Assembly: GCA_007026445.1 (NCBI GenBank)
Contig: VDMD01000083.1
Location: 1 to 64,000 of the forward strand
DNA from: Schizophyllum amplum
Lineage: Eukaryota > Basidiomycota > Agaricomycetes > Agaricales > Schizophyllaceae
Reading direction: 5' to 3'
DNA: 64,000 bases
Below, in pieces: positions 19,596 to 64,000 of the stretch (its first letter is position 1; the number at the start of each line of letters is the position of its first letter). Under the pieces are notes generated by a model. The model was not told where the DNA came from and searched no databases. It saw only the letters and a list, made by a program, of their open reading frames with translations. Both the position numbers and the translations under genes were made by a program.

Positions 19596-19837
19596 CGGTA
19601 CTGTCTAATACACAGTTCAGAGTCAAATACTTCTGCAACACCGTATAGTGGTAGATCAGCCGACGGTAATCGAGAGCGGGTGAGCGCGAGAACAAGGAGA
19701 ACAATGGACGTCACAGTCACGTTGCGTGACTGGTCAACCACGTGGTAACGCGTCGCGCCGAGAAAGGAAATTTGGCATTTTCCTCCTCCGACCCCCTTCT
19801 CCCCGTCGTCCTCCAAGTAGTCGCGTGGCCCGGCGAC
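19596..19837. promoter_or_regulatory. Bidirectional promoter of GCP2 and uS4m
   Basis: These 242 bp separate the start codons of two divergent housekeeping genes. The sequence is GC-rich with several CpGs and no evident TATA box. Confidence 0.5.
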
Positions 19838-33185: not shown

Positions 33186-33515
33186 GAGCGGGGCAAAGCT
33201 CGAGACGATGCTATGTTGCCGGAGAAGGAAGAACGAACGACGCGATGCGCACTCACCTTTATAAATTGTGCGACGGCCGCAGAATTATGGGGAAATAGCC
33301 GTCGGTTAAGGAACGACTTTGGGCCATCTGACCGCAGTCTTACCGTCGATACCTCCCTCCGCATGGGCTTCGCCCAAAGCCGCACTGGCCAAGAAGGTCG
33401 ATCCCTATGGTCTACTCCGACGTACCTCCGTAGAAAGGTTGGAAACTTAGCGTGCGACGGTAAGCTCTCATATGTAGCCGATGATCGCATACATCATCAG
33501 GCAAGACCGTGTGAA
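33186..33515. other. Intergenic region between two minus-strand genes
   Basis: This is the promoter of GH95 copy 1. An AT-rich ATTTATAAAGG-like motif (minus) lies at about 33261, some 75 bp upstream of the start, and could be its TATA box. Confidence 0.4.
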
Positions 33516-35888
33516 CTACCGTCTCCTATTTGCGGTGCATCTCTCTCTGTGCGCGCCCTCGGTCCAATCTCTGGGAACAATATGAGCAACAGGGTTAGTA
33601 GAGGATCAAGAAGAAAAGAAGGCCAAGGGGGATCAAGCACGGGACAAGGCGACCAGGCCCGGGAGGGATCACGGATTGTCTGGCGATTCGCTCACTCACC
33701 CCTTCTGACACGACCGACCACAGTACTGCACTACCCCGCAGGGGCACGCGCGCATTCGCCGGTCCGTGCGCGCCCCGGAGAGCGCGCAGAGGAAGAAGGA
33801 GCAGCCGAGGATGGGAAGTGGCGGTGCGAATGGGGATGAGGAGATAGTAGGCGGGTATGAGGGAGGTGGAGGTGAGAAGGCCGGTGGCGGGGGTGACGAG
33901 GATGTGAAGGACGGCGTGGACGAAGAGCAAGGTGTCGGTGTAAATAACGATGATGAAGACGAGGCGGTTTCTGGAGGTGACAGGAGAGGCGATGTCGGTG
34001 ACGGAGAAGGTGGCGGCGACGGTAAGACCGATGCCACACCGTCCATCTCATCCCACGCCGCAAGCAGTCGGCCGAGCTCGAGCCAGAGTTCATAGGGTGC
34101 CCGAGGTATGGTAGAAGTCGTCGATGTGGAAGCGGCTGTTGGCGTTGAGGCTTCGGCGCTGGTTGGCGTCGCTGACGACGGCCGCGACTCTGGTCTTGTA
34201 TGATAGCAGGGCGCAGTCACACCTGCTGCCATGTCTCCTTTTGCATCTATGCTTCGTGTTGGCTGCGAACCTCCGGCGAAGGAAAACACAGTTTGAAGAG
34301 TATATGAATCCTGCGAGCCCGACTCTCGCGCCGCCGGAATGATAGCCAACTGCCTCGCTGTCCGTCCCCACAGCGGCTTCAGGCCTTTCCTGAGATCGCG
34401 CACGAGGGGTGGCGGATCTATTGGTCGAGATACTTTGTCAGGTCCCCCAGTGCACTCAAGGCTTCGACAACCTGCGTTGTCAGGAACGACGAATGGGCGC
34501 CGTGTGTCCCATGCTTGTTTATGAGAGGCTCAGCCTCCCGCTCCGCATGCGCCCTCGTCAAGCGCGCCATTAAGTTGGCCCCGTGCCGCTTGTCGAGGAC
34601 GCGGAGGAGGATTTTAGAGGTGGGATCCGGTGCGAGTTCTGTAGGGCGAGACGTCGTGTCATCTGACAAGCGAGCAGCGCGAAGAATAGTTCTAGGAGGG
34701 ACTTAGCCAAAATTCGACGCAAGAAGTAAACGACGCACGCACGACAGAATATCGCTCGCGTAGCCGTTCGCAGCGCATGCGAGGGGGGAGTAGGTGTAGT
34801 GGCTACTTGGCGGGGCGATCGTATCAATGTGCATCGCCTCTTCACCGACCGACGACCCTCCTGCGACTGATGGTCCCTCCACAAGCAGCCGCCACAAGAT
34901 ATCCGCGAGCACGACCTCAAATCCGCGCGGCAGCAGGTGCACTGCATCTGGGTGGGTATCGAGAACGAGGGCGGTCAATCGAACACACTTGAGGACGGTG
35001 TTGAGGGAGGAGCTCGATAACGAGGATGGGGAGACGGTAGTTAGATTCGAAGATGTGGCGGCTATCAGCGTGCGTGCGAGATGACCGATGAGGACCTCGG
35101 GATCACGACGCAGGACGTAGTCGGCCTCGTGGCTCTGTACCGCGTCGAGCATGGCGAGGGCATGCTGCATAGACTCTAGTAGGCGAAGCGTCTCGCGAAC
35201 TAGGTCGTGATTTGGTGCGTGGATCCAGAGATCCATGCAGAGAGACCAGACGCAGGAATCTCGGAGGAGAGTGCTGGGTAGGAGAGTAAACAGTCGGTAC
35301 AAGCGAAAGACGAGGGTGTCCGCACGCACTCTAGTAGTAGACCTGATTCTGCATCGAAGAAATTCTGGAGAAGCATAAGCGCGCGGATAAGGGCGACAGC
35401 ACTCTCATGAAAGTCAACACGCAAGGCATGGTCGGGCGTGCGGACGAGCGTGAAGAGATGCTCTTGTACACTGGCCAGGAGAGAAGGTGCGTCCCGAAAA
35501 ACAGTCCGTACTGCCAAGCGCCGGTCGTGAGCATCGTCGGGGGCCTCGCGTATATATCGCAGGGCGCGCCGGAAGCAGTCGATCGCGACAAGCTGATGGG
35601 CATGTGTGGTCAGAAGCGCTACACGAGTCTCACTGAAGATGTTCCTACCACTTCGTGCACCTCCTTGCTTTGCGCGACGGTCGAAATCGCGTCGAGGATT
35701 CCTTGCTCGCGCGCCTCTGCCCAGCGCGCGTCGGTAAGGATGCCGTCGACCTTGAAGAAAACAGTGAGCAGCGCGGCCGTGCAGGGCACCTTTGCCTGCC
35801 GACACTCCTCGAGGAGCTTTCCTGCGCCATTCTTGCGCAGTAGCCTAATATCAGCGAGGGTGAGCAGGTCGCTGTCGAGCCCAGGCAT
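33516..35888 (-). CDS. MYND-type zinc finger protein with helical-repeat region
   Basis: Exons (minus) 35888-35649, 35592-35330, 35273-34743, 34691-34434, 34389-33700 and 33570-33516 give 678 residues. Most of the N-terminal 430 residues are alpha-helical, leucine-rich and armadillo-like ('LLTLADIRLLRKNGAGKLLE', 'ALAMLDAVQSHEADYVLR'). A long Pro/Ser-rich linker ('PSPPPSPSPTSPLLSPP') leads to a C-terminal MYND finger, 'CPCGVVQYCGRSCQKGDW' then 'TEGAHRERC'. The finger is completed only by the last intron (33699-33571), whose removal gives the canonical CQKxDW-x3-H-x3-C ending. MYND fingers bind proline-rich peptides, so a scaffold or regulatory role is likely but unproven. Intron 3 (34742-34692) was placed at the only donor/acceptor pair that keeps the frame. 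Confidence 0.85.
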
Positions 35889-46256: not shown

Positions 46257-49200
46257 ATGTGGACTCGTTGGGCGCTTATCCTGGTTTGCAACCTCCTCGC
46301 CGCCTCGCAGACGTCAAGAGGCGCTCCCGAGGGGTTCCCCACATCTGGAAACGGGCTGTGGTATGACGCGCCCGGCGTGTACTGGGGGAGGGACTTCCTT
46401 CCCGTGGGCAATGGGTTTCTCGCAGGTGCGCTGCGAGAGCTTTGAGGATATATTGCCCCTTGGCTTTATGATCTAGAGCAGCGCCCGTCAGACTGTGTGC
46501 ATTTGGCTGACGAACTGCGAAGCTATGACCCCGGGTGGCACGAGTTTTGAGGCGACGCAATTAAACTTGGAGTCCCTTTGGTCCGGGGGGCCTTTCCAGA
46601 ACTTGGTGAGTTAGTGCTCGATGCTGATCCGCGGAATGACTGCCAGTCCATGCCATGTTACCTAGGAATTGACTGACACTGTGCCATCTGCAGTCCTACC
46701 ACGGCGGGAACAAGGAGACGTCCGACCGCGAGGCTACAAAGCAAGCGATGGCAAGCATACAGGACACGATATTCAGCACGGGTACCGCGACCGGTACGTA
46801 CGTCTGCTCTCGTTGCAGCAATTTCGCCTCCGTCCATTAAGCCCGGTGCTAACTTTCGATCCTGCAGACCTCACAGCCCTCATGGTGGATGAGCAGATTA
46901 ACTACGGTACGCATGTAGCTCGAACCATACTCTGCATTCATTGTTGACGCTGCAACGACCCAGGATCTTATGCCGGCGCGGGATACCTACTGACGAGCAC
47001 GGACCTCACGGGAGAGGTCTCTGATTACGCACGCTGGCTCGACCTCGACCAAGCCGTCGCGCGCACACTGTGGACCCAGGGAGACACAATCACGAATAGG
47101 TATTGCCCTCGATTCGTCTGTAACCTTCTTTTCAATTCACCTTCGCTGACAACTCCCATCCTCCACAGAACAACCTTCTGCTCGCATCCTGCTAAAGCAT
47201 GCGTACAGCACACCGCGTCCTCCGCCTCACAAACCTTCACCTTCGCCTTCTCGGTCGCCCCCGAGCCAGAGCTGCCCTCGCCGAACGTGACGTGCCTCGA
47301 TGACGCGACGCTGCAGGTGCGCGGGTACGCCGGCGCGCCAGGGATGCTGTATGAGATCCTCTTCTACGCGTCGTCGGCGTCCGGCGCGGTGTCCTGCGCG
47401 CCCGCCGCCCCCTTCAACACGTCCGTCGACACAGCGAACGCCACGCTGACCGTCTCCAGCGCCGCGGACGTTACGCTGCTCTGGGTAGGCGACACTGAAT
47501 ATTCGATGGACGCAGGCGACGCCGCCCATGGGTTCTCCTTCCGCGGCGCCGACCCGCACGAGGCGCTCGCCGCGCGCCTGGCCGCGCTGCAAACCACGGC
47601 CTTCGACGGTCTGCTGGAAACGCATGTCGCCGATGCCAACGCCACGCTGCACACGTTCGCGCTCGACCTGGGCCAGACGCCGCAACTGGACGTGACGACG
47701 GCGGCGCTGATGCAGGCATACCAGACGGACGACGGCAACCCGTACATTGAGTGGTTGTTGTTCAACTTCGGACGCTATCTGCTGTGGGGTAGCGCCCGGG
47801 GCACGCTGCCGGCGAATCTGCAGGGCAAGTGGGGAGCGGGGTATTCGAATGCTTGGGGCGCAGGTGCGTGCAACAAACTGTTTTTATGGCGATGTCTTTT
47901 GTGGCAAACATCTTTGTCCATCTGTGGCGGGTTCGTTTCCGTGGCATATGCTCGCCCTACCCAAATACACTCCACAGTTTGGGTACAATGCACTGACTCT
48001 TCATTTCACAGACTACCGTACGTATATTCAAAAATCCAAGTCACAGAGGGCCCAGCCTGAAACAATGACATCCAGACGCGAACATCAACATCCAGATGAA
48101 CCTTTGGTCGGCGGAGATGACGGGGCTGGATGTGTCACAGTCCATGTTTGACTATATGGAGGTGAATGAGTTGGGCACGAGCGCTTTGGGTCAGCGGGGC
48201 GAAGGCTCCCTAGGAGCGGGTCGAGTGCTAACTTCGAACATGTTCGAACTGTCCCCGTGTTCTTCGAACCTTTCCCCTATTCTTCGAACCTTTCCCCTAT
48301 TCTTCGAGATTTCTTCATGCTTCTCGAGCTTTCCCCATGTTTCTCGAGCTTTCCCCATGTTTCTCGAGCCTGGAGTTGGAGCGACCGACCGGCACGTCCC
48401 ATATCCTCTTGAAACCCTCGTAGTCTCTCGAAATCCACCTAACACTATCCTCTCTCAGAAAACCTGGGTACCGCGAGGCACCCAGACGGCGCAGAACCTG
48501 TACAACATCGACGAGGGCTGGGTTACCCATAACGAGATGAATGTGCGTCTGAGTCTGTCTTTGTTGTCGTCAGCCTGTCTTTGTTACCGGGTCGCTTTGC
48601 CGAAGTTGTCGCTGGTGCATCATTCTTTCCTGCGTTCAAATCGTGCGACTATGATCATCCGGTCGCTGAAAGCTAGTCTCCAGCAGACGCTCACGACTAA
48701 CCGCCCACGCTAGATTTTCGGCCACACCGGCATGAAGCTCGGCGATCCACAGTGGGCGAATTATCCAGGTATGTGAATAATGCGGTCTTATAATGTCTGA
48801 ATTGCTGGCTGACTTCGCTTTTATTCTCAGAGGCCAATGCGTGGATGGTGAGGCCCTACTTATCTTTCCCGGACATAATGTGCCGCTCGTGAGCAAGGGC
48901 CACCTCGAGATGACTGTCCCTCGCGCTTTGAAAGGATCATTGCCTCGGATGATCATCCTTCGCGCGTTGAGATATCCGATCCTCTCATTGATTCTCCATC
49001 TCGTCTTACTTCAACCTCGCTCTCCCAGATGCTCCACGTCTGGGACCACTTCGACTACACGAACGACGTTAGCTGGTGGCAGGCGCAGGGCTACCCGCTG
49101 CTCAAGGTGCGTGCGTGATCTTTGGTGTGTGCGTGATCTCTGGTGGCGTTTGGTTGCGTCCGCGTGTGCGAGAACAGCAACCTGACGAGTCGTGCCCATA

Positions 49201-50835
49201 CCCTAAGGACTCGAGGCGCGCCCCAACCCTATGTACTCACCATTGTTTAACCCCAGAGCGTTGCCCAATTCCACCTCCACCGCCTCGTCCAGGACCGCTA
49301 CTTCAACGACTCATCGCTCGTTACGGCGCCCTGCAACTCGCCGGAGCAGAAGGCGGTGACGCTAGGTGAGTCGTGATGCGGTAACTCTGCGTGAGTCGTG
49401 ATGCGGTGGATCTGCGTGAGTCGTGATGCAGCTGGACGACATGGATGGACGTGACGTGGAAGATAGACGGCTGGAACCATGCTCTAGGACGGCTGGAACC
49501 GTTTTCAAGCGCTACGGTGTACGCGAGTACGGTACTAAGTACCATCCAACAGGCTGCGCCCACGCCCAACAACTCGTCTGGCAGCTCTTCAATGCGGTAG
49601 ACAAGGGATTCGAGGCCTCTGGGGACACAGATGCAGAGTTCTTGGACGGTGAGTTGGACGCTCGGTAGCTGACCTCGGACGCCCGGCCGCATGTCCACTG
49701 TCCAGCGGATGCCTGGTGGCATATGTCCAGGGATGCTCATTTGACCACAGCCATACGAACAGCCCGCGATCAAATGGATAAAGGGATCCACATAGGCTCC
49801 TGGGGACAGCTTCAAGGTGCGGATTAGGTGATTCTTGGGGAAGTTTCCCGTTCTTGAGAAAGCTTCCCGTTCTTGAGAAAGCTTCCCGTTCTTGAGGAAG
49901 GTTTTCCAACTGACTTCCATGCGCGTAGAGTGGAAAATCGACATGGACGACCCGGCGGACGTCCACCGGCACCTGTCGCACCTCATTGGGCTGTATCCTG
50001 GGTATGCGCTCGCCTCGTACGATGAGGAGAAGCGGGGATCGGATGTTGCATACACAAAGGCGCATGCTGCGTACACCAAGGCGCAGGTCCTTGACGCCGC
50101 CGCGGTCAGCCTCGCGCACCGTGGAAACGGTACAGGACCGGACGGGGACGCGGGGTGGGAGAAGGTGTGGCGCGCGGCGGCGTGGGCGCAGCTCGGGGAC
50201 GCGGACACATTCTATCATATCCTCACTGTGAGTTCGACTTCCGGTCCTCCCGATGGCGCACAGACATTCACGCGCCGGTGCATGTTCATTCTCGCGCGTT
50301 GCCTGTTCATTCTGGCTCTGTCCACCGTGCACCACCTGACCCATCCGACTCGCGCATTCCTTACCCCTCACCCACCGCTCACTAACTCCCTCTCCCGTAG
50401 TACGCCATCGCCACCAACTTCGCCGAGAATCTCTTCAGCGTGTACAACCCCGGGGACGCGGATCCCATATTCCAGATCGACGCGAACCTCGGACACCCGG
50501 CAGCGGTGCTCAATGCGTTGATTCAAGCGCCCGATGTTGCCACAATTAAAGCGCCCGATGTTGCCACATATGACGATCCGCTGGTCACCACCCTCCCCCA
50601 TCCGCTGGTCATCACCCTCCTCCCCGCCCTCCCCGCCCAGTGGCCCTCGGGGTCGATCACGGGCGCCAGAGTGAGAGGCGGGATGACGGTCGATATGGAG
50701 TGGAGTGGGGGAGAGCTGAAGAGCGCGACTATCACGGTGGGGGAAAACATTGTGCCGAGAGACGTCCAGGTCGTGGTGGGCGGGGAGGTCGTGCTTGAGT
50801 TCACGACGGCGCCGGGGATGGTACAGAGCATATAA
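46257..50835 (+). CDS. Secreted GH95 alpha-L-fucosidase, copy 2 (expanded)
   Basis: Seventeen exons: 46257-46425, 46523-46605, 46694-46793, 46868-46906, 46964-47099, 47169-47863, 48012-48017, 48076-48161, 48459-48542, 48714-48768, 48831-48847, 49029-49106, 49257-49365, 49553-49648, 49751-49816, 49929-50227, 50401-50835; 850 residues. The function and motif order are those of copy 1: signal peptide MWTRWALILVCNLLAASQTS, 'GNGFLAAMTPGG', 'LNLESLWSGGPFQN', 'APCNSPEQ', '[20 protein letters not shown]', '[16 protein letters not shown]'. All 16 intron positions and phases are shared with copy 1, including the 6-nt exon 7. Introns from exon 8 onward are mostly two to six times longer through tandem repeats. 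Exons 16 and 17 carry extra in-frame repeats ('YTKAHAAYTKAQ', 'APDVATIKAPDVAT'). The reading frame is intact, so it is probably still functional. Confidence 0.93.
48237..48371. repeat. Tandem repeats in GH95 copy 2 intron 8
   Basis: Two adjacent arrays: units like TTCTTCGAACCTTTCCCCTA (about 20 nt), then TTTCTCGAGCTTTCCCCATG-type units (about 19-20 nt). They swell the intron to 297 nt; the matching intron of copy 1 is 47 nt. Confidence 0.85.
49365..49431. repeat. Tandem repeat starting at the donor of GH95 copy 2 intron 13
   Basis: About 2.7 copies of a 25-nt unit containing GTGAGTCGTGATGCGG. Because the unit includes the splice donor, the donor sequence itself is present three times. Confidence 0.85.
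49832..49905. repeat. Tandem repeat in GH95 copy 2 intron 15
   Basis: Three near-identical 19-nt units of CCCGTTCTTGAGAAAGCTT type. Confidence 0.85.
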
Positions 50836-50852
50836 GCGGTGGCTGAAGGGCG

Positions 50853-50912
50853 TCTAGTCATTGTGCATCGAGTCATTGTGCATCGAGTCATTGTGCATCT
50901 AGTCATTGTGCA
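50853..50912. repeat. 15-nt tandem repeat after the GH95 copy 2 stop
   Basis: Four copies of AGTCATTGTGCATCG-type units in the probable 3' UTR. Confidence 0.85.
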
Positions 50913-51028
50913 ATAGTTGTACTACCAACCTACAGTTGTAGAAGTCGAACTCAGGGCGCTATTGCATACACCGAGGGAGGGTTTTATCGGACCCGTTCTA
51001 AGTACCACTCAACGCAGCCTGGGTCTAC

Positions 51029-51132
51029 CGCCATCCAACGCCAGGGTGTATACCCTCACTCCACGCCAGGGTGTATACCCTCACTCCACGTCAGGGACCA
51101 CCTTCACTCCACGTCAGGGACCACCTTCACCA
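51029..51132. repeat. Tandem duplication covering the stop codon of the dehydrogenase gene
   Basis: Two copies of a 30-nt unit (CCAGGGTGTATACCCTCACT...) are followed by two copies of a 26-nt unit (CACTCCACGTCAGGGACCAC...). Read on the minus strand, the second unit contains the last codons and TGA of the dehydrogenase, so a second copy of its terminus lies just after the real stop. Confidence 0.8.
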
Positions 51133-54100
51133 CCACTTTCCCCTTCGCCCGATGCGACATGACCCTCTCGTACGCCTTCAGCACGTCCTCAAACGCGAAC
51201 ACCGAGTCAACGACAGGCTTGAGAGTGCCTGTACGATGTTCGGTCAGTTTACGAACAATGAACCCATCCCCCAAACTCACCTGCAGCCAACATCCCATTC
51301 ATATCCTCCAGGTCCTCCTTCTTGCTCATCAGCGCATACGTCGAGTGCTTCCGGGGGATGCCACCAAGGAAGCGCGGCCAGATGGCCGCGAGGCCGTGCT
51401 TGAGGATCGTAGCGATCTGGCAGAGGAAGAGGAGTTAGTGGGATGTGAGAAGGGAGAGGATAAGTGAGATGCGGGAGAAAATGAGAGCGAGATGCGGGAG
51501 AGAATGAGAGCGAGATATGGGAGAGAATGAGAGTGAGATATGGGAGAGAATGTGAGCGAGATGTGGGAGAGAGAGAATGAGAGTGAGATGTGGGCGAGAA
51601 TGCAGAAGGAAGGACGGAAGGGAGGGCATGCATCGTCAAGAATGAATATGCATCGTGCATCGTCAAGAATGGGTATGCGTCGTACAGGAATGTCCACGTG
51701 AAACAGACATGGAGAGCGAACCAATTATCGAGAGCGAACCAGCCATGGAAAGCGAACCAGCCATGAAAAGCGAACCAGCTATCCAGAGTGAAACAGACAT
51801 GGAGAGCGAACCAAATATGGAGAGTGAATCAATCATCGAGAGTGCATCGTGCTTTTGGCGCAGACCTTCGGGGACATTTAGTGGCGCGAGAATACTAGAC
51901 TCACCTTCCAGGATGTACGAAGAGTTCTCCTAGCCTTCGGGGGCACGTTGGAGGTTTTGATGCCAGTTCAAAGGACGGTCGAAGGATTTGAGAGCCCTCA
52001 AAGACAGCAAAATGTTTTAAGTCCTGCTGAAAGGTGGCTCAAATTATTTCTCTGGCCTTCCAAATGCATTGGTATATTTTTGATGACCTCCCAAGTAGGG
52101 CCGCAGGTTATCGGTATCCAGTCAAGCATGAGCGCAGGTTTTCGACGCAGTTCAAGTTCGGACCGATGTCCGCCGATCATGTGATAAGATCGCGCGCCAC
52201 CGCGACCGTGAATGAGGCACGTACTATACTACTCAAGCACGCTGAAGAACGAAGGCTACTTACCAGAGCCAAGCCGTCTTAAGAATAATGAGGCTTTGGT
52301 GAGGCGCGGGCGCAGCGGGTGCGGCCCAACGCGACAATGAGACCGCGTTCCGCGTTCGATCACTGGATGCCGTCGCGTCCAGGTCGCGTCGATCGCGTTG
52401 TCCTTGCGTTGAGCGCTCTCATGAACGGCTTCAACTTTCCATCAAGTCAATCCTTAGCCTACCCTCAGGTGGTCCGTGCGTCATGCGATCGCCTGATTGC
52501 AACACGATCCGAGACGGCGCCTCGAACCCTTTGCCTCTTGCCTCTACCAACCATGTTCGTCTGCCCGGCCCCGTTTCATTCCCATTCTCTCCGCTTGTGC
52601 CTTTATGAAGATCGACGAGCAGCCAGCTGTCGGCAACAAGATGTCTGGCCTATGCGTCGCCTGACCGCGACCAGCGTTCGGTAAAAGCGCATGCATCCGT
52701 TGGAATGGCCATAGGAGGGGCCTGCGACTCACAAGGTGCGTCTGATGCCCCGCGACCGGGTTATCAATGTTTACAATACACTACAGCGTGCCAGAAGCTC
52801 CTCCGATCGCAATAGGAGCGCATACACCCAGGTCGTGGGTTCGCCGGTGATCGCTTTTGAGCGAAGGTCCCATTCCAGGTGCGCTCACGATCGCTGAAAC
52901 CGCGCGCAATAACATGAAGTCTCGGGTAGCGCGATCCTGAACTGCCGGGGACAAGCGCGTCTCGGCGACACTTCCTCCGCGTCTACGCGCGATCGACATG
53001 AGGTACGCCAGCAAACTTGCACCGCATATATGCGCATATGTCACTTACATTCTTACTCTAGCTGTGCTCATTGTCCCTAACGCGCTGGGAGTTGTCGTCG
53101 CCACCGGGCCGACACGAACAGCGCGAAGCCTCGATTCCTGCCTGACTATCATGATGGGTGCAGACCGAGCGCGACATGCGCGTTCCCGATCTGGGATGAA
53201 CATTAACATACGTTCGCCTACGAGAATTACGTCCCACGAGCCCATCTCTCCCCCACCTCATCGTCAAATTCGTCGCATCATCTCGTCGGTAAGCATCTAC
53301 GCCGCAAAATTGCTCGCCCGGGCGCAGCTCTCCGCCTCCGCCAGCTCAAGCGCATCCTTCGCTCAGACCTGAGGTGAGGACTAGAAGCGATATGTGACTC
53401 TCACTGACGGCAGCGCGACGACTCGCGACGTGCAAGCGAGGTCAGCGACGTGAATTCGCCACCGCCGCCTCGGAGGAACGCACGATCTGGCGGACGCAGC
53501 TCCGAAGCGCGACGAGAACAAGTGTATGTATTTCTCGTACCGATATCGGCACGCTCTTACTTATCATTGCCTTTAGACAATAATGTCAATGCTTCCGTTC
53601 TCGCAGCCACAAGCGCGCACCGCTGCTTCTTGCTCTTGGGAACTCCGTACGTCGTCTAGGTGTTTGATTGCTCTCTCGCTGTTCTATTGTAGTACCATTG
53701 CGCTGCCTCGCTCGTATCTCATGTACTGTAGTCGATTAATTAACGTGATTGCTGTGATGGTGTCGGGTTCCCAGGACCCAAGTACCAAAAACCTTATGAA
53801 CCGTTGATCCTGAGATAACATTGGCTGCTCTGGAAGCCTATGCAAGCTTTGATTGCCTTTCAGGTCGGCCAAAACCTCTGCTACCTTTCAAGTACGGAAA
53901 TCTTCGGTAACCTTTCAAACAAGCGAGAAGCTTCCCAGCTTCGCCCAACTTCGTTATCATCCTACGACCGGCAAAGGTATCGCAGGATTCCCATGCCTTC
54001 GGGCACTTTTGCTTGCGTTCGCAGCCTGCTAAAGTCTGCGGCAAGGGGTGCGATGTGAACCAATCCTCAAGAGTGACCCAATCCTCAAGAGTGAACCAAT

Positions 54101-56633
54101 CATCGAGAGCGAACCAATCATCGAGAGTGAACCAATCCTCAAGAGTGACCCAATCCTCAAGCCAAACACGCACATTCGACAGCGTCGTCGGCCCCATAAA
54201 GAAGCCCGTCGTCACGTACACGCCCCCGGGCGCCAAATACGCCTCGCTGTGGGTGTACAGAGCCGGATCGGTCCCGCCCACCGCGTCCACGATGAGGTGG
54301 AACTTGGTCGAGGGCGAGGTATTGGTCGAGGGCGAGGTCTTGGTCGAGGATGGGCTCTCGGTCGAGGATGGGCTCTTGGTCGAGGATGGGCTCTCGGTCG
54401 CGGTCGCGGACGGGTCCTTCGCCAGCTGCTCATGCACCGGCGCCTTCTTGTAATCCACAAACTGCAAGTAAAAAGGTGGAGTGGTCAGCTCAGCGTAACA
54501 AGGTGCGTGTCGAATGCAGCGTGCGTGTCGAATGCAGTGTGCGTGCATATCGCACGATGCAGTGTGCATATCGGAGGATGCATCGTGCGTGCATATCGGA
54601 GGATGCAGCGTGCGCATATCGGAGGATGCAGCGTGCGCATATCGGAGGATGCAGCGTGCGCATATCGGAGGATGCATCATGCGTGCAATGCGCATATCGG
54701 AATGCAGTCCGACTGCATATCATAAAACGCGACATATCTCACTGAGACGCGACCACTCACCCCATCGGCACCCAGCGCCCTCACCATCCCCTCGTTCTGC
54801 GCGGATGCGCTCGCCACGACGCGCGCCGCGCCCTTCGCCTTGGCCATCTGGATCGCGTAGGCGCCGACCGAGGAGCTGCCGCCGTTGACGAAAACGCTCT
54901 GATCGGGTTCCAGGACGAAGGCGCTGCCGCCGTTGACGGAGGCGCTGCCGCCGTTGACGGAGGCGCTGCCGCCGTTGACGAAGGCGCTGCTGCCGTTGAC
55001 GGAGGCGCTGCCGCCGTTGACGAAGGCGCTGCTGCCGTTGACGGAGGTGCTCTGGTCGGGCTCCAGGGTACCATCCGCGCGACGGGCGAGGTTACCGGAG
55101 CGGAATAGCATCTAAGTGATATGCGTCAGTTCCAGCATCATGGCCGCCCCTCGACTTCTCCACCATCGCTACACCACTACGCTCCAGCGATCTCGGATGT
55201 GCGCTGCCACACCACTCCAGCGATCGATGTGCGCTGCCACTACGCTCCAGCGATCGATGTGCGCTGCCACACCACTCGAGCGATCTCGGATGTGCGCTGC
55301 CACACCACTCGAGCGATCTCGGATGTGCGCTGCCACACCACTCGAGCGACCGCCAAACAAGCCATCCGCATACCTGATAGGCCGTCTGTCCCGCGAGCGC
55401 CATCCCCGCCGCGCCCGTGGGTGCTACGTGCGCGGGACGGCGTACGATGTGCGTCGTCGGGATACGGAGGTACTCGCATAGCGCGCCCTGACGAATTTTG
55501 ATCGAGAGGCCTGGGAGGGAGTTAGTGAGAAGTATGGGAGTTTAGTGAGAAGTATGGGAGTGAGTTAGGAAGTGAGTGAGTGAGGTATGGGAGTGAGTGA
55601 GTTAGGAAGTGAGTGAGTGAGTTAGGAAATGAGTGAGTTAGGAAGTGAGTGAGATGAGAATGCGAATGCGAGTTCAGCCAAGTCATGTAGTCAGTCACCC
55701 GGGACAATGTTTAGTCGTCGGCCAGAAGACTCCACCACCACCACCACCACCACCACCACCACCACCACCACCACCACCACCACCACCACCACCAAGAGTC
55801 CTTGGACCGCCGGGAAAAAACGCACGGCTCAAAGGAAAACGCACGGCTCAAAGAAAAACGCACGGCTCAAAGAAAAACGCGCGCCCCAGAGAAAAAAAAA
55901 TCGCGCAACGTACCGACTTCCACAAACCCCCAAACCGCATCGCCCTCCTTGAATTCGGTGCCGTTCGCGTCCACGACCGTCCCCGCAAAGTCGTTCTCCG
56001 CAGGCAGCGGGCGTCGGGCGAGGAAGTCGGGGAACAGGCTCATCACCTTGTAGCCGCTGCATGTGTGGGAAGAATGAGTGAGTGAGTGTTGGTGAGAGAA
56101 TGAGTGAGTATTGGTGAGAGAATGAGTGAGTATTGGTGAGAGAATGGGTGAGTGTTGGTGAGAGAATGAGTGAGTGTTGGTGAGAGACAGACAGACGTGA
56201 AGAGAGAAAGAGAAAGAAGAACAGACAAGGTATACACGCAATGCGTCCGCACGCAGAGAATGCATCCACACGCCAGAGAGAGACAATGCATACGCAGAGA
56301 GACAGTGCATACGCAGGGAGACGCGATGCATGTATGGGATACACAATGCATGTATAGGATCACGAGCAGCTCAAGTGGGCAAACAGCTGAAATGGACACA
56401 CAGCTGAACTAGTAAACAAACACGCACACAGGATTCAGCGCCGCCGCTTCGACGCGCACGAGCACCTCGCCGAACCGCGGCTTGGGTACCGGCCAGTCAC
56501 GGTGAAGGCGGAGCACCTGGTCGGGGGTCCCGCGGCGCTCGATGATCCAGGCGCGCTGGGTGGTCGGAATGATCCAGGCGCGCTGGGTAGTCGGGATGCC
56601 GCTCGGGATGCTGCTTGGCACGGTGCCGCTCAT
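51104..56633 (-). CDS. Medium-chain dehydrogenase/quinone reductase (MDR) gene enlarged by tandem duplications
   Basis: Exons (minus) 56633-56428, 56056-55914, 55510-55374, 55111-54761, 54461-54174, 51416-51281 and 51228-51104 give 461 residues, about 100 more than usual. MDR order: GroES-like part ('FGEVLVRVEAAALNPVGYK', 'GDAVWGFVEVG'), then 'GMALAGQTAYQMLFRSGNL', the nucleotide-binding turn 'VFVNGGSSSVGAYAIQ', 'ALGADGFVDYKK', 'HLIVDAVGGTDPALY' and the C-terminal 'LKPVVDSVFAFEDVLKAYE'. It probably reduces quinones or enones with NAD(P)H; a catalytic zinc set was not seen. Extra residues are in-frame repeats: PTTQRAWII twice, about 50 residues of VNGGSA-type units just before the nucleotide-binding turn, and SPSSTE/SPSSTK units. 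Introns are 371, 403, 262, 299 and 2757 nt; only the last (52 nt) is of normal size. Frame and splice sites are intact. Confidence 0.88.
51464..51602. repeat. Degenerate purine-rich tandem repeat at the 3' side of MDR intron 5
   Basis: Units of about 20 nt, GAGATGTGGGAGAGAATGAG type, with GAG/GTG changes. Confidence 0.85.
51697..51850. repeat. 18-nt repeat array, 3' arm of MDR intron 5
   Basis: About eight units of GAGAGCGAACCAGCCATG type. The same family is found at 54054-54164 in the same orientation, about 2.2 kb away at the other end of the intron. Confidence 0.85.
51851..54053. other. 2.2-kb non-repetitive segment inside MDR intron 5
   Basis: Mostly unique sequence without a supportable gene, lying between two arms of one 18-nt repeat family. 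Its edges repeat short words (CCTTCGGGGAC at about 51865 and 51934, CCTTCGGGCAC at about 53996; CCTTTCAAG/A near 53887-53915). No convincing terminal inverted repeats or target duplication was found. It could be an inserted element or original DNA caught in an exon-skipping gene structure. Confidence 0.5.
54054..54164. repeat. 18-nt repeat array, 5' arm of MDR intron 5
   Basis: Six units of GAGTGAACCAATCATCGA / GAGTGACCCAATCCTCAA type, immediately inside the splice donor at 54173. Confidence 0.85.
54300..54412. repeat. In-frame 18-nt tandem repeat in MDR exon 5
   Basis: Units of about 18 nt, read on the minus strand as SPSSTE/SPSSTK and degraded at one end to TSPSTN. They sit between the dehydrogenase core phrases 'VHEQLAKDPS' and 'FHLIVDAVGG'. 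Confidence 0.85.
54497..54720. repeat. 22-nt tandem repeat in MDR intron 4
   Basis: Several units of GCATATCGGAGGATGCAGCGTG type (about 22 nt, not a multiple of three), filling most of the 299-nt intron. The unit size moves the repeat through all three frames, so it could not persist in coding sequence. Confidence 0.85.
54898..55057. repeat. In-frame 18-nt tandem repeat in MDR exon 4
   Basis: Six to eight copies of GACGGAGGCGCTGCCGCCGT-type sequence (18-nt period), read on the minus strand as VNGGSA/VNGSSA. A second copy of 'LEPDQS' closes the array, so the whole block looks like a local duplication that then expanded. Confidence 0.88.
55170..55350. repeat. Tandem repeat in MDR intron 3
   Basis: About six units of 25-33 nt (AGCGATCTCGGATGTGCGCT plus GCCACACCACTCG), alternating short and long forms. 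Confidence 0.85.
55511..55880. repeat. Compound simple repeats in MDR intron 2
   Basis: From left: GTGAGTGAGTTAGGAA-type units (55520-55655), a near-perfect (CCA)n run of about 20 units at 55732-55793, and four 18-19-nt units of CACGGCTCAAAGAAAAACG type at 55815-55880. Together they enlarge this intron to 403 nt. Confidence 0.88.
56066..56190. repeat. 20-nt tandem repeat in MDR intron 1
   Basis: Five to six units of GAGTGAGTATTGGTGAGAGA type, close to the intron's acceptor side. Confidence 0.85.
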
Positions 56634-57575
56634 TGTTGTGAATAAATGGAAGGAGTGTAGTTCAGTGGGCGATGGTGGACAAGTAGGCGACGGTGGTCAA
56701 AGTAGGCGAACTCCGCCGGTGGACAAGTGGGAAACGGTAGTCAACTTGTAACTGCCACCACGCATTTTCCTCGCCGGTCTTTTATACTTATGCATGTCAG
56801 AGCTGGTCAGGGGCTGGTTTGGCCGATCGAGAGCTTGCTTTGGCCGATCAAGAGCTTGGTTAGAGCCGGTGTAGGGCTTGGTTAGAGTTGGCTAGGGGCA
56901 AGTTAGGGGCGTACACTCACCGGACATAACGGGATTCCCGAGCATCACGGCGATTTGAGCGAGGCTGTCACTGTCACGGTGATTTCAGCGAGGCTGTCAC
57001 GGCTTGGTCATGGCGCCCAACCAATTTCGGCAAATGGCGTGGGGTGGCGTCGACTGGCGCAAATACGCGCAAATTCTCACGAAGTTCAGCCGGCTCAGCC
57101 TTGCCCTCACGAAGTTCAGCCTCACCCTCACGTTCCAGTCAGCCTCACCCTGACAATGACACCCTCACCCTGACAATGGACACCCTCACTCCCACGTCTA
57201 CCCCCATCTCTCCAGCACCCCGCTGCCATCCTCCAGCACCCCGCCGCCATCATCAACCCCACCACGGTCCACCGTTCATTCTCACCTCTTCCCCTCAATG
57301 ATCCACCTCTTCCCCTCAATGATCAATCATTCTCACCTCTTCCCCTCAAAGCATACCGCCACCGTCATCGCACCCGGGGACGGGGCTCTTAATTGAGCAC
57401 CCGGGGGCGGGGCTCTTTGATCGGCCGCCACTACGGTGTGATGGATCAGTGCTAGTTAGTTCACAGTGTGTGTAATGGATTGCTACTTATTTCACTATGG
57501 ATTGCTACTTAGTTCACTGTGTGATGAGATGCTAGGTACCTAGTTCACTGATGCTACCTAGTTCACTGATGCTAC
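56634..57575. other. Upstream region of the MDR gene with short duplications
   Basis: No gene is seen. Short duplications occur throughout: GGTGGACAAGTGGG units near 56670-56740, TTTGGCCGATCAAGAGCTTG units near 56815-56885, CACCCTCACCCTGACAATG near 57150-57185, CCTCTTCCCCTCAATGATC near 57285-57345 and GATGCTACCTAGTTCACT near 57525-57590. The MDR promoter must lie here. Confidence 0.6.
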
Positions 57576-60010
57576 CTAGTTCACTGCTGTTGTGCACCGT
57601 AATTTCGTTCGAGTACGCCTGCTAGGTACACACTTCGTCCGAGCACGTCGACCCCGTCCCGGCGGTGAGAATACGTCGCCCGACCTTGGCTGGCTGGTGA
57701 GGGGTACGTCGCCGACCTTGGCTGGTTGGTGAGGCACGTCGTGCGACGACGTGCGACGCCTCGTGCGTATACGACCTCCTCGGGCCCCCGTTCGTGCGAC
57801 GCCTCCTCGAGCCCTCCGGGGCCCCCGAGTCGGCCCCTCGTCGTCCATAGCCCCCCGTCGTCCATAGCCCCCTCGTCGTCCATAGCCCCCTCGTCGTCCA
57901 TAGCCCCCCGTCGTGCGGATGCGCCCCCACCCCCCCCCCCCCCCCTCGAGCCCCGAGTCGAGCCCCGAGTCGGGCCCTGGTCGTGCCATAGACGCCCCCG
58001 CCGACGTGCGACGCCTCCTCGTCCCGAGTCGTCCATAGCCCCCTCGTCGTGCATAGCCCCCTCGTCGTGCATAGCCCCCCCTTCGTGCGGAGGCGCCCTC
58101 GACGCCCCCTCGTGCGACGCCCGTTCGTGCGACGCCCCTCGTCCCCCTCGTCCCCTCGTCCTCCCGATTGGGCCCGTCGTGCGGAAGCCTCCTCGTCGAC
58201 CCCCGGCGTGCGCATGCCCCCTCGGGCCCCTCCTCGAGCCCGGTCGTGCGACGCCCCCTCGAGCCCCGAGTCGGGCCATAAGCCCGGTCAGGCCCCGGTC
58301 GAGCCCCCCGTCGTGCCATGGATGCCGCCCTCGAGCCCCTCGGTGAGCCCCTCGTACGCCCCTTCGGTCCCCGAGTCGTGTGCGGACCCCCCCTTCGAGC
58401 CCCGGCGTATACGCCCCCTCGTCGACCATAGCCCCCTCGTCGTGCACGGGGTCCTTGTCGTGCTGAGGCTCTCCTCGGGCCCCGCCGGTCGTGCACTAGC
58501 CCCCTCGTCGTGCAGAACCGCCGCCCGTCGTGCGACGCCCTCCTCGTGCGACGACGTGCAACGCCTCCTCGTGCGACGACCCCTTCGGGCCCCCGCTGGC
58601 GTGCACATGGCCCCCTCGGCTTCCGGCGTGCGTACGCCTCCTCGGGCCCCGGCGTGCGACGCCTCCTCGTCGTGCGACGCCCCCTCGTCGTGCACGGGGT
58701 CCTCGTCGTCCATAGCCCCCTCGTCATCCATAGCCCCCTCGTCGTGCATAGCCCCCTCGTCGTCCATAGCCCCCTCGTCGTCCATAGCCCCCTCGTCGTC
58801 CATAGCCCCTCGTCGTGCGTCCCCCCCTCGTCGTGCATAGCCCCCTCGTCGTGCGCCTGGCTCCCGAGTCGTGCGCGAGGTCCTTGCCGAGTCGTGCACG
58901 AGGCCCTCGGGTCCCGTCGTGCACGAGGTCCCCCCCTCGTCGTCCATAGCCCCCTCGTCGTCCACAGCCCCCTCGTCGTGCGACGCCCCCTCGTCGTGCG
59001 ACACCTCGAGCCCCTCGTCTCCCCCGTCGTGCGGATGCGCCCTCGAGCCCCTCCTCGTGCGACGGCGTGCGACACCTCGTCCTCGTCGTGCGGTCGGCCC
59101 CCCGGGCGTGCCCTCGTCGTGCCCTCGTCGTGCACTAGCCCCCGGTCGTGCCGTTCGTCCCCCTCGGGCCCCCGTTCGTGCGACGCCTCCGGTCAGGTCG
59201 TGCGACGACGTGCGACGCCTTCGTCCCCCCGTCGTGCACGAGGCCCTCGTCCCGAGTCGTGCGACGACGTGCGACACCTCCTCGTGCCCCCGAGTCGTGC
59301 GGATGCGACACCTCGTCCCGAGTCGTGCACTAGCCCCCGGTCGGGCCCTCGGCGTGCGACGCATCCTCGGCTTTCGGCGTGCGACGCCTCTCAAGCCCGG
59401 CGTGCGACGCGCCCTCGTGCCGCGGCGTGTGGAGGCGCTCCCTCGGGCCCCGGCGTGCGACGCCCCTCGACCCGGTCGGGCCCCCGAACGTGTACTCCCT
59501 CGGGCCCCGGCGTGCCCCTCGACCCGTCGGCGTGCGACGCCTCGTGCCCGGACGTGCGCGAGGTCCTTGCCGAGTCGAGCGGTCGGCCCCCCCCCCCCCC
59601 CCCAGTCGTGCCAGGATGCGCCCCTTGGGCCCTCGGCGTGCGGAGGCTCCCTCGTCCCGAGTCGAGCGCGAGGTCCTTGCCGAGTCGTGCGCGAGGTCCT
59701 TGCCGCGGATGCGCCCCCAGTCGGGTCGTGCCATAGACGCCCCCGCCGGCGTGCGACGCCTCCTCGTCCTCGGCGTGCGACGCCTCTCAAGCCCGGCGTG
59801 CGACGCGCCCTCGTGCCGCGGCGTGCACTAGCCCCCTCGAGTCCCGAGTCGGGCCATAAGCCCGGTCGTGCGATGCCTCTCCTCGTCGACCATAGCCCCC
59901 TCGTCGTGCATAGCCCGCTCGTCGTCCATAGCCCCCTCGTCGTCCATAGCCCCCTCGTCGTGCATAGCCCCCTCGTCGTCCATAGCCCCCTCGTCGTCCA
60001 TAGCCCCCTC
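57576..60010. repeat. Satellite-like tract A (CpG-rich, 18-nt core unit)
   Basis: A dense mosaic built around CCCTCGTCGTCCATAGCC (18 nt) and the variants CGTGCATAGCC, CGTGCGACGCC and GTCGTGCACTAGCCC. Runs of the perfect 18-mer occur at about 57845-57915, 58700-58810 and 59885-60010. Long C runs sit at about 57931-57945 and 59587-59603. Stop codons are nearly absent in several frames simply because of composition, which produces long meaningless frames on both strands. Confidence 0.9.
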
Positions 60011-60920
60011 GTCGTATACGACCCCCGTGTCCGTGTCGTGTCCGTATACGACGCGCCGCGTCCTCGTCCGTGTCGTGCTACGACGACCCGTGTCCGTAAT
60101 GTCGTATACGACCCCCGCGTCCTCGTCCGTGTACGACGCGCTGTGTCGTGTCGTATACGACCCGTGTCCGTGGTGTCGTACTACGACCCCGGCGTCCCCC
60201 TTGTCGTACTACGACGCGCCGCGTCCGTGGTCGTGTCGTACTACGACGCGCCGCGTCCGTGGTCCGTGTCGTCGTATACAACCCTCGTCGTCCGTGGTGT
60301 CGTACTACGACCCGCGTCCGTGTCGTGTTGTCGTATACGACCCCCGCGTCCGTGTCCGTGTCCGTGGTGTTGTCGTATACAATAGCCGTCGTCCGTGTCG
60401 TGTCGTATACGACCCGCGCGTCCGTGTCGTGTCGTATACGACCCCCGCGTCCGTGGTCGTGTCGTACTACGACCCGCGTCCGTGTTGTCGTACGACCCCC
60501 GCGTCCGTGGTCGTGTTGTCGTATATATACGACCCCCGCGTCCCCTCGTATACGACCCCCGCGTCGTCCGCGTCCGTGTCGTCGTACTACAAGCCTCGGC
60601 GTCCGTTTCGTGTCGTCGTACTACGACCCCCGCGTCCGTGTCGTGTCATGACGACCCGCCGCGTCCGTGTCCGTGTACGACCCGCGTCCGTGTCGTGTCG
60701 TCGTATACGACCGACCCCCGCGTCCGTGTTGTCGTACTACGACCCGTCGTCGTCCGTGTCGGTGTCGTACTACGCCTCGTCCGCGTCCGTGGTCCGTGTC
60801 GTACTACGACCCGCGCGTCCGCGTCCGTGTCGTCGCATATATACGACGCGCCGTCGTCCGTGTCGTCGTCGTATACGACCCGCCGCGTCCGTGTTGTCGT
60901 ATACGCCTCGTCGTCCTTGT

Positions 60921-60950
60921 GCTAGTGCGGACGGTGCGGATGAGATAGCC
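60921..60950. repeat. 30-bp conserved island in tract B, copy 1
   Basis: Begins GCTAGTGCGGACGGTGCGGA and ends GAGATAGCC. The same island recurs at 62464-62493 and 63386-63415, far more conserved than the surrounding repeats. Confidence 0.85.
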
Positions 60951-62463
60951 CTCGTCCGTGTCCCTGTTGTCGTACTACGACCTGCGTCCGTGTCCGTGTC
61001 CGTGTCGTACTACGACCCGCGTCCTTGTGCTAGTGCGACCGACGTCGTCCGTGTGCTATTCAATACCCGTCGTCTGTGTCGTATATATACGACCCCCGCG
61101 TCCGTGTTGTCGTATATATACGACGCCTCGTCGTCCGTGTCGTACTACGACCGCCGCGTCCGTGTTGTCGTACTACGACCCGCGTCGTCCGTGTTGTTGT
61201 ATACGACCGTCGTCGTCCGTGTCGTAGTATACGACCCTCGTCGTCCGTGTCCGTGTCGTGTCGTATACGACCCGCGTCCGTGTTGTCGTATACGCCTCGT
61301 CGTCCGTGTCGCCGTCGTATACGACCCCCGCGTCCGTGTCGCGTCGTACTACGACCCGCGTCCGTGGTCGTGTCGTACTACGACCCCCGCGTCGTCCGTG
61401 TCCTTGTCGTACTACGCCTCGTCGTCCGTGGTCGTGTCGTATACGCCTCGTCGTCCGTGCCGTCTACTTACGACCCGCGCGTCCCCCTTGTCGTCGTATT
61501 ACGACCCCCGCGTCCTTGTCCGTGTCGTCGTATACGACCCCCACGTCCGTGTCGTCGTCCGTGTCCGTGTCGTATACGACGCCTCGTTGTCCGCGTCCGT
61601 GTCGTACTACGACCCCCGCGTCCGCGTCCCCCTTGTCGTATACGACGCGCCGCGTCCGTGGTCGTGTCGTATACGACCGTTGTCCGTGGTCGTCGTATAC
61701 TTACGACCGTCGTCCCTTGTCATATACTTACGACGACCCGCGTCCGCGTCCGTGTCGTACCACGACCGCCGTCGTCCGTGTCGTCGTATACTTACGACCC
61801 CCGCGTCCGTGTCGTCGTATACTTACGACCCCCGCGTCCGTGTCGTCGTATACTTACGACCCCCGCGTCCGTGTCGTGTCGTATAAATACGACCCGCGTC
61901 CGTGTCCGAGTCGTATACGACTGTCGTCCGTGTCGTGTCGTCGTACTACGGCCCCGGCGTTCTTGTTGTCGTACTACGACCGACGCGCCGTGGTGTCGTA
62001 CGACCCCCGCGTCCGCGTCCGTGTCCGTGTCCGTGTACGACCCCCGCGTCCGTGTCGTATACGACCCGCGTCCGTGGTCGTGGCACGACGCCCCTTCGAT
62101 CGTGTCGTCGTACTATGACGCGCCGCGTCCGTGGTCCGTGATGTCGTCGTATACGACCCGTGTCCTTGTCCGTGTCCGTGTACGACGCGCCGCGTCCGTG
62201 TTGTCGTATACTTACGACCCGCGTCGTCCTTGTCGTCGTATACAATAGCCGTCGATCCGTGTCCCCCTTGTCGTACTACGACGCGCTGCGTCCGTGGTCG
62301 TGTCGTATGTATACGACGCGCGTCCGCGTCCGAGTCCGTGTCGTACTACGACGCGCCGCGTCCGTGTCGTACTACGACCGCCGGCGTCCGTGGTCGTGTC
62401 GTGTCGTATACGACCCGCATCCGCGTCCGTGGTCGATGTATACGACCCTCGATCGTGTCGTGT

Positions 62464-62493
62464 GCTAGTGCGGACGGTGCGGATGAGATAGCC
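62464..62493. repeat. 30-bp conserved island in tract B, copy 2
   Basis: Identical by eye to copies 1 and 3 over 30 bp; preceded by GTGT and followed by GTCGTCCGTG. Confidence 0.85.
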
Positions 62494-63385
62494 GTCGTCC
62501 GTGTCGTACTACGCCTCGTCCGTGTCGTACTACAACCCGGCGTCCGTGTCCGTGTCGTACTACGACTCCCGCGTCGGCCGTGGTGTCGTATACTTATGAC
62601 CCGCGTCCGTGTCGTGTCGTACTACGCCTGTCGTCCTTGTGGTCGTACTTACGACCCCCTCGTCCCCCTTGTCGTCGTATACGACGCGCCGCGTCCGTGG
62701 TCGTGTCGTATACGACCCGCGTCGTCCGTGTCGTTGTCGTACTACGACCCGCGCGTCCGTGGTTGTGTCGTATACGACCGTCGTCGTCCGTGTCGTATAC
62801 GACGCGCCGTGGTCGTGTCCTTGTCGTACTACGACCCCCACGTCCGTGTCCGTGGCATGACGACGCGCCGTGTCCGTGTCCGTGTCGTCGTATACGCCTC
62901 GTCCCCCGTGTTGTCGTATACGACCGACGCGCGTCCGTCCGTGTCGTCGTATACTTACGACCCCCGCGTCCGTGTCCGTGTCGTACTACGACCCGCGTCC
63001 GTGTTGTGTCGTATACGACCCGCATCCGCGTCCGTGGTCGTGTCGTGTACAACCCGCGTCCGTGTCCGTGTCGTACTACGACGCGCCGCGTCCGTGTCCG
63101 TGTCGTACTACGACGCGCCGCGTCCGTGGTCGTGTTGTCGTATACGACGCGCCGCGTCCGTGGTCGTGTCGTACTACGACCGTCGTCCGTGTCGTACTAC
63201 GACCCCCGCGTCCGTGTCCGTGTCGTATACAATAGCCGTCGTCCGTGTCGTCGTACTACGACGCGCCGCGTCCGTGTCGTATACGACCGGCGCGTCCGTG
63301 TTGTCGTATACGACCGCCGTCGTCCGTGTTGTGTATTATACGACCGTCGTCCCCCTTGTCGTACTACGACGCGCCGCGTCCGTGT

Positions 63386-63415
63386 GCTAGTGCGGACGGT
63401 GCGGATGAGATAGCC
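63386..63415. repeat. 30-bp conserved island in tract B, copy 3
   Basis: Third copy of the island, followed about 15 nt later by GTGCTATTCAATAGCC, a partial relative also seen near 61060. Confidence 0.85.
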
Positions 63416-64000
63416 GTCGTCCGTCGTCCTTGTGCTATTCAATAGCCGTCGTCCGTGTCGTATATATACGCCTCGTCGTCCGTGTCGTGTCGTACTACGA
63501 CCGGCGTCCGTGTACGACGCGCCGTCGTCCCCCTTGTCGTACTACGCCTCGTCGTCCGTGTCGTCGTATACGACCCCCGCGTCCGTGGTGTCGTACTACG
63601 ACCGGCGTCCTTGTCGTATACGACCCGTCGTCGTCCGTGTCGTGTCGTACTACGACCCGCGTCGTACTACGACCCGCGTCGTACTACGACCCGCGTCCGT
63701 GTCGTATACGCCTCGTCGATCCGTGTTGTCGTATACTTACGACGGCCCCCGCGTCCGTGGTCGTCGTCGTACTACGACCCTTCGATCGTGTCGTCGTACT
63801 ACGACCCCCGCGTCCTTGTCGTATACGGCCGTCCGCGTCCGTGTTGTCGTATACGACCGGCGTCCGTGTCGTACGGATGCGCCCCTCGTCGTCCGTGTTG
63901 GATAGCCGTCGGCCGTCTCGTCGTATACGACCCACGTCCGTGGTCGTGTCTACTACGACCGTCGTCCTCGTCCGTGTCCTTGTCGTATACGACCCCCGCG

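Follow-up and report, generated by a model that had tools for sequence, protein, structure and literature searches.

The duplication zone and its genes

The DNA considered here (the window) comprises bases 1-64,000 of contig C292 (109,372 bp) in the assembly of Schizophyllum amplum (49.65 Mb, 309 contigs), and its right-hand part runs into a zone where short tandem duplications crowd around a satellite. A GH95 gene (46257-50835, forward strand; annotated protein P0121, 841 aa) straddles the left edge of this zone with its 3′ half inside, a medium-chain dehydrogenase/reductase (MDR) gene (51107-56633, reverse strand) lies within it, and an AP-1 complex mu gene (P0241; C292 exons from 69,773 to 78,208) is found in its right part, beyond the window. 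The zone covers ~31,000 bases of C292, from ~48.2 kb to ~79.3 kb, and is two-sided, with a halo of ~7 kb on the left (the transposon discounted), then the satellite and then a halo of ~12 kb on the right. The left halo has an outer part (48162-51844), with arrays in introns and in the last exons of GH95, in the 3′ spacer and at the 3′ end of MDR, and an inner part (54059-57700). These are divided by a transposon-like insertion (51845-54058), which sits in an 18-nt array of an MDR intron and is separate from the duplication process.

Another contig, C302 (99,462 bp), can be aligned with C292 throughout the region, with 94-97% identity in both flanks, and most probably represents the other haplotype. 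A recent segmental duplication, the less likely alternative, would leave the comparison of the two contigs equally valid. Both contigs have the same two-sided layout. On C292, Tandem Repeats Finder (TRF) places the left edge of the dense tandem duplications at ~48.24 kb; the fraction of bases in arrays is 0 at 40-48 kb, 0.13 at 48 kb and 0.45 at 51 kb, and it stays at 0.46-0.51 over 54-58 kb, up to the satellite, the gap at 52-54 kb being the transposon-like insertion. Arrays cover 54% of the C-rich part of the satellite and nearly all of 60-67 kb; the zone had been thought to end there, but it continues on the far side with 9-57% per kb at 67-80 kb, after which the values fall to 0-6% (one bin 12%). 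On C302, the halo starts at 41.8 kb, the satellite lies at ~48.7-51.9 kb and the halo ends at ~64.2 kb, followed by 0-11% (one bin 17%). The halo edges thus fall at closely corresponding places on the two contigs, and the flanks on either side revert to nearly duplication-free sequence. GH95 introns are modestly lengthened even before 48.16 kb, which makes for a softer left edge than the TRF profile shows.

An alignment-free count was made of perfect duplications, defined as at least two identical adjacent copies with a period of 12-120 and with simple-sequence units removed. The halo of the two haplotypes holds 69 in 41,136 bp, those common to both entering twice (C292, 15 in 9.5 kb and 18 in 12.3 kb; C302, 15 in 7.0 kb and 21 in 12.3 kb). 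Outside the halo, C292 and C302 hold one in 130,374 bp, and 13 control loci hold five in 124,701 bp; the halo is 219-fold denser than the former and 42-fold denser than the latter. The excess is beyond chance, and the original observation is real and stronger than first described. This comparison sequence totals ~255 kb and is a sample of the genome, and no claim is made that the zone is unique. Among the control loci, 11 (L019-L028 and the neighbouring L033) were chosen by match to the query and L032 for a lone satellite 15-mer, only L031 being arbitrary. Unit size varies little: array units are mostly 15-33 nt across the zone, as had been claimed, and the 69 perfect duplications have a median unit of 21 nt, with 67 between 12 and 27 nt and the remaining two at 33 and 42 nt.

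The two haplotypes also differ in many of these arrays. Insertions and deletions of at least 10 nt between C292 and C302 number 29 in 46.3 aligned kb outside the zone (0.41-0.86 per aligned kb), 15 in 3.3 kb of the outer left halo, 20 in 2.3 kb of the inner left halo and 160 in 8.8 kb of the right halo, where the alignment is poor. For the outer left halo (48162-51700) this amounts to 4.57 per aligned kb, with substitutions at 3.3% vs. 2.6-2.9% outside. Insertions and deletions that are at least 80% a copy of neighboring sequence were found eight times outside, eight times in the outer left halo, twice in the inner left halo and 13 times in the right halo. Among the 105 two-copy arrays (52 and 53), seen from each contig, 11 are duplicated in both haplotypes (largely the same arrays) and five are single in the other, which indicates that old and new events coexist and that duplication is ongoing. 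Identity between the contigs drops to 72-88% near the satellite, and from ~57.0 kb to the satellite on C292 the haplotypes are not alignable.

Frame, introns and substitutions in the genes of the zone

Arrays inside coding sequence (>60% coding) have periods that are a multiple of three in 11/11 cases, whereas non-coding arrays do so in 57/171, exactly a third (35/87 and 22/84; Fisher 1.1e-5 for the pooled counts, the haplotypes not being independent). The coding set consists of 6/6 on C292, including two parts of one 18-nt array, and 5/5 on C302, including a 90-nt composite; by our grouping, the 11 arrays represent seven distinct events. Five arrays that straddle exon edges were set aside (periods 25, 23, and 25 on C292, 23 and 16 on C302; 15-49% coding by our reckoning), and none of these periods is divisible by three. 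Coding sequence contains 1.3-1.5 arrays per kb and the rest 5.6-5.8 per kb, and the coding units of 18, 21, 24, and 27 nt all preserve the frame, as originally described.

In the GH95 gene (forward strand), an exonic 21-nt in-frame duplication (50043-50085) is common to both haplotypes. The last exon carries a 24-nt in-frame duplication (50521-50568) on C292 only and an imperfect 24-nt in-frame duplication (50577-50624, not in the TRF list for C292) with two copies on C292 and three on C302. In the MDR gene (reverse strand), an exonic 18-nt in-frame array (54304-54400) is 54 nt longer in C292 than in C302, and a 21-nt in-frame array of 6.6 copies (54914-55051), built differently in C302, stands just before a glycine-rich motif that we take to be involved in cofactor binding. 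A 27-nt in-frame duplication in MDR exon 1 (56542-56598) has another 27-nt duplication nearby as its counterpart on C302. Those that are haplotype-specific (the GH95 24-nt unit of C292, the extra third copy of C302 and the differing duplications of MDR exon 1) are nevertheless in frame. No array falls within an exon of the AP-1 mu gene; the start of one of its exons is overlapped by two of the five straddling arrays. Allelic ratios of non-synonymous to synonymous divergence (dN/dS) are 0.21 for GH95, 0.29 for MDR and 0.09 for AP-1 mu, based on 798, 439, and 357 codons, respectively, with some small exons omitted, the MDR arrays included and the AP-1 mu alignment gaps sitting at exon ends where the coordinates used run into introns. 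These observations support the proposal that purifying selection on functional genes filters a regional duplication process, and replication slippage, the kind of process first suggested, is likewise supported. A 16-aa insertion of P0121 is absent from the two other S. amplum GH95 proteins and from the closest S. commune proteins, P0122 and P0123. The latter two carry an in-frame tandem repeat of their own (~8 aa, DQTTGAQL type), placed upstream of where S. amplum has its insertions, a hint that the GH95 locus may be duplication-prone in S. commune too.

The introns of these genes show net growth, although two haplotypes cannot polarise deletions vs. duplications. In 13/13 usable comparisons, a GH95 intron in or near the zone exceeds its paralogous counterpart in length (e.g., 297 vs. 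47 nt and 181 vs. 52 nt); 12 of the paralog values come from a GH95 gene at 29.8-33.2 kb, ~15 kb away (two introns unusable), and one from a gene on C223. The introns of the nearby paralog measure 46-61 nt, bar one of 109 nt, and the 46-61 nt of the GH95 paralogs also served as the yardstick for the other two genes. The introns of MDR, a gene with a paralog on C266, are ~200-440 nt long, except one of 52 nt and one that holds the insertion. For AP-1 mu introns measurable singly in both haplotypes, the lengths on C292 and C302 are 898 vs. 167, 769 vs. 1,914, 655 vs. 474, 259 vs. 730, 268 vs. 430, 393 vs. 615, 377 vs. 263, and 338 vs. 299 nt, so that single introns differ up to five-fold between haplotypes whose exons differ at 4% of synonymous sites. 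One MDR intron also contains a (CCA)21 microsatellite (55732-55794), with ~four to five units on C302. The ~2.2-kb insertion at 51845-54058 is absent from C302 and has a 99% copy at C101:453289-455486 and a 92% copy on C24.

Synonymous substitutions in the genes of the zone are not raised, and the process appears to be specific to duplications. Allelic synonymous divergence (dS) is 0.092 for the part of GH95 outside the zone, 0.109 for the part inside, 0.09 for MDR and 0.041 for AP-1 mu. In the left halo outside arrays, substitutions amount to 2.1-4.5% per kb, within the range found outside the zone (0-14%, mostly <9%). A generally raised mutation rate or old balanced alleles, suspected from the identity of 72-88% near the satellite, were rejected on the flat dS.

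The satellite

The satellite extends from 57.7 to 67.0 kb on C292 (to 67010; ~9.3 kb) and measures ~3.2 kb on C302, the boundaries being our own. Its left part (57700-60000, forward strand) is made of C-rich 18-nt monomers of the CCCCCTCGTCGTCCATAG type, followed by a palindrome-rich part with GTCGTA...TACGAC cores (60000-64000 and on to contig position 67010, forward strand). A query from the C-rich part (58661-58997) matched C292 and C302 only, bar one 65-bp match on C8, with very common words skipped, and the assembly contains 31 copies of the 15-mer GTGTCGTATACGACC (23 on C292, 7 on C302 and 1 elsewhere, on control locus L032). By these probes, the satellite appears to be single-locus; a centromere was rejected since the satellite was found at one locus only. 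Palindromes (dyads with 6-bp arms) reach 26 per kb on C292 vs. 4.8 in shuffles and 24 vs. 4.5 on C302. Folding of single-stranded DNA, with one piece each, gave a z of -4.0 for a 300-nt palindrome-rich piece, -1.75 for a C-rich piece and -0.5 for a control. Compensatory pairing in the satellite hairpins was looked for and not seen; the arms are mostly constant, the loops are variable and mismatched arms are present. The two haplotypes have the same satellite core, located close to the center of each zone. Being palindrome-rich, with this common core, the satellite could be the cause of the zone rather than its product. No tRNA or Rfam RNA genes that might act as fork barriers were found in six 10-kb loci (L001, L013-L015, L017, and L018), which take in both halos and, partly, the satellite.

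The zone had been predicted to lie near a chromosome end. This was not supported: duplications occur to either side of an internal satellite, and both flanks are nearly duplication-free and 94-97% identical between the contigs. A 24-base TTAGGG pattern was found on five other contigs and on neither C292 nor C302. With a two-sided rather than one-sided layout and without this pattern, a subtelomeric repeat zone was rejected; on a larger scale, the locus may still be subtelomeric.

At the borders of the satellite, the arrays are haplotype-specific, one on C302 having a 42-nt unit in 7.5 copies. A motif of the right-border array (67238, 67378) turns up again within the satellite on both contigs (C292 60929, 62472, and 63394; C302 51667), as if flank sequence had been taken into it. 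The right border also holds a 170-bp element with terminal inverted repeats (C292 67008-67178; L017:3008-3178), copies of which, 99-100% identical, are found on C157, C1, C223, and C288.

Origin of the duplications

Two published systems bear on how the duplications might arise. In fission yeast, forks that collapse at the RTS1 barrier and are then restarted through recombination give rise to deletions with a median of 24 nt and duplications with a median of 22 nt; the events lie between repeats of 1-10 nt, substitutions are not significantly raised and translesion polymerases are dispensable (Iraqui et al., 2012; PMC3475662). The median unit in S. amplum is 21 nt, and substitutions in genes are not raised (dS 0.041-0.109 inside, 0.092 outside). 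Flanking homology, counted on the 46 perfect duplications with <2.6 copies, is 1-10 nt in 35, none in 6 and longer in 5, with a median of 4.5 nt and at least 3 nt in 32/46, where ~5% would be expected at random junctions by our own formula; leftover partial copies of older duplications may inflate these values. On these three tested features the locus appears to work like fork-restart slippage, with a putative barrier activity and a putative dependence on recombination genes. The fission yeast system differs in being an engineered barrier and reporter, covering 1.2 kb and with deletions the commoner events, whereas the S. amplum zone is a natural locus that extends 7-12 kb on both sides. Inverted or GAA repeats in budding yeast stimulate mutation at a distance, to either side at 8 kb and to a lesser degree at 30 kb; this mutagenesis is largely Pol zeta-dependent, comprises substitutions, frameshifts, and complex mutations and occurs mostly under a replication defect (Saini et al., 2013; PMC3681665). 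The S. amplum locus shares with it a central structure-forming repeat, whose fragility here is putative, and a two-sided effect over several kb, but dS in the three halo genes is not raised, and Pol zeta-type repeat-induced mutagenesis was rejected on this spectrum.

Since the reach resembles that in Saini et al. (2013) and the spectrum that in Iraqui et al. (2012), we favor a model in which forks chronically stall or break at the satellite and synthesis after restart is prone to slippage. On this analysis we consider it probable, if narrowly so, that the zone is a satellite-centered, duplication-specific hypermutation domain produced by slippage-prone restarted forks, and we infer that the satellite is the cause of the halo. 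The palindrome-rich satellite would chronically stall or break replication forks, collapsed forks would be restarted by recombination and the restarted synthesis would dissociate and re-anneal at short homologies, gaining or losing ~20 nt, with slippage reaching ~7-12 kb on each side. In introns, the minimum length of ~50 nt would act as a floor: a deletion of ~20 nt would kill splicing while a duplication would be tolerated, creating a ratchet by which introns grow. Net growth may occur despite the deletion-rich yeast spectrum because of this floor. Beside the satellite, on its left, turnover may be so fast that the haplotypes retain no spacer that can be aligned, and newly formed arrays there may supply the raw material of the satellite.

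Several observations weigh against fork restart at the satellite. The satellite is ~three times longer in C292 than in C302 and yet the halo is about equally wide, and the density profile is a plateau with an edge instead of a smooth decay. The assay of Iraqui et al. (2012) covered 1.2 kb of restarted synthesis, compared with a halo of 7-12 kb, and two thirds of its events were deletions, compared with net growth here, for which the ratchet is a proposed explanation. Leftover partial copies may account for some of the flanking homology, and the 24-nt duplication at 50521, single in C302, has no junction homology in the alignment as read. Among the two-copy arrays, 78/105 are not placeable in the other haplotype. 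Finally, non-coding substitutions look raised in places, at 5.4% (inner left halo) and 9.5% (right halo), and outside arrays the right halo shows 2.4-14% per kb; since AP-1 mu, which lies in the right halo, is the least diverged gene, these raised values are read as misaligned arrays.

A more far-reaching version can be put forward only tentatively. Here the locus would be a satellite nursery in which the palindromic satellite, via repeated fork collapse, makes a duplication-only mutator domain, turns neighboring unique DNA into arrays, inflates the introns of housekeeping genes and feeds its own growth, with selection visible only as a frame filter. The strongest rival, in our ranking, reverses the order of events and is possible, though we rather doubt it: the zone would be primary, a late-replicating, origin-poor or fork-merging stretch that is chronically under-replicated and slips, and the satellite would be its oldest and most successful array, in keeping with the original idea that the satellite is an end point of the duplication process. 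This would fit the equal halo width despite the ~three-fold difference in satellite length, the recurrence of right-border array pieces within the satellite and the haplotype-specific arrays beside it, which can be large, as the 42-nt unit of C302 illustrates. It sits less well with a satellite core that the two haplotypes share in a roughly central position, and with palindromes five-fold over shuffles, as expected of a cause.

An unlikely alternative starts from double-strand breaks with staggered ends: overhangs of ~20 nt would be filled in and sealed through end joining with Pol alpha-primase, or closely spaced repair patches would be involved, in either case without fork restart. The narrow size band suits an overhang length, and the lack of junction homology in the duplication at 50521 also fits. 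Set against this are the 32/46 two-copy duplications with at least 3 nt of flanking homology, a count possibly inflated by partial older copies, and the bounded zone of 7-12 kb on each side, which staggered breaks alone do not explain. This route produces small tandem duplications in mouse and human cells (PMC8355091). That system resembles the present case in its small tandem duplications of local sequence, and it differs in its use of targeted breaks in cells, in that microhomology is the mark of the minor route, through Pol theta, and in the lack of a natural zone.

Ordinary causes are very unlikely to suffice. Subtelomeres are minisatellite-rich, repeats are tolerated in spacer and intron DNA and, under relaxed constraint, in a subtelomere or in an old balanced polymorphism, they might accumulate at a normal rate. 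However, the GH95 paralog ~15 kb away has introns of 46-61 nt (bar the one of 109 nt), the 130 kb of flanks hold a single perfect duplication, the TTAGGG pattern is on neither contig and dS is not raised, so that the haplotypes are not unusually old here. Compared with hypervariable minisatellites and subtelomeric repeat-rich DNA, the zone shares short tandem units and allelic differences in copy number, but here many different units have arisen from unique sequence in one bounded, internal and gene-bearing zone.

The two remaining explanations are the weakest. Polymerase-theta end joining is highly improbable, given that a six-frame search of the assembly, which may be incomplete, gave one weak DNA-polymerase-A locus (C277), which we take to be the expected mitochondrial polymerase and not Pol theta; tandem duplications with microhomology can nonetheless result from this pathway (PMC8355091). 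An assembly artefact is scarcely credible, for although the satellite consensus may hold errors, two contigs share the zone and its edges while differing in detail, the coding arrays are all in frame and exon structure and dN/dS are normal.

In the literature searched (titles and abstract openings, with most subscription papers outside its scope), no account of a satellite-centered duplication zone was found. To our knowledge, the birth of satellites and minisatellites and the lasting marks of restarted forks in natural genomes are open questions that have been approached mostly with engineered reporters. The S. amplum locus combines the expected spectrum (~20-nt duplications with gene substitutions not raised) with ~20 kb of gene-bearing flank and two haplotypes, and the introns and exons of the same genes provide an internal control for selection. 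It offers a natural site at which to measure what spectrum fork restart has, how far it reaches and which genes it needs, and a mechanism for fast intron growth without transposons.

Some further features of the region and the assembly were observed. Within the window, the two contigs differ by only 0-0.7% at 19000-24000 and 30000-34000 vs. 2-6% in the adjoining kilobases, which we read as a mosaic of recent identity or gene conversion. At C190 236-256 kb, short tandem arrays are clustered in two copies of an 11.9-kb segment; as a candidate second halo this region was rejected, having only 2 and 1 perfect duplications per 10 kb (L028 and L033). Beyond the right edge of the zone, C292 carries two long, apparently related open reading frames in opposite orientation (81118-82767, reverse strand, and 85765-87504, forward strand), the arrangement of which differs on C302.

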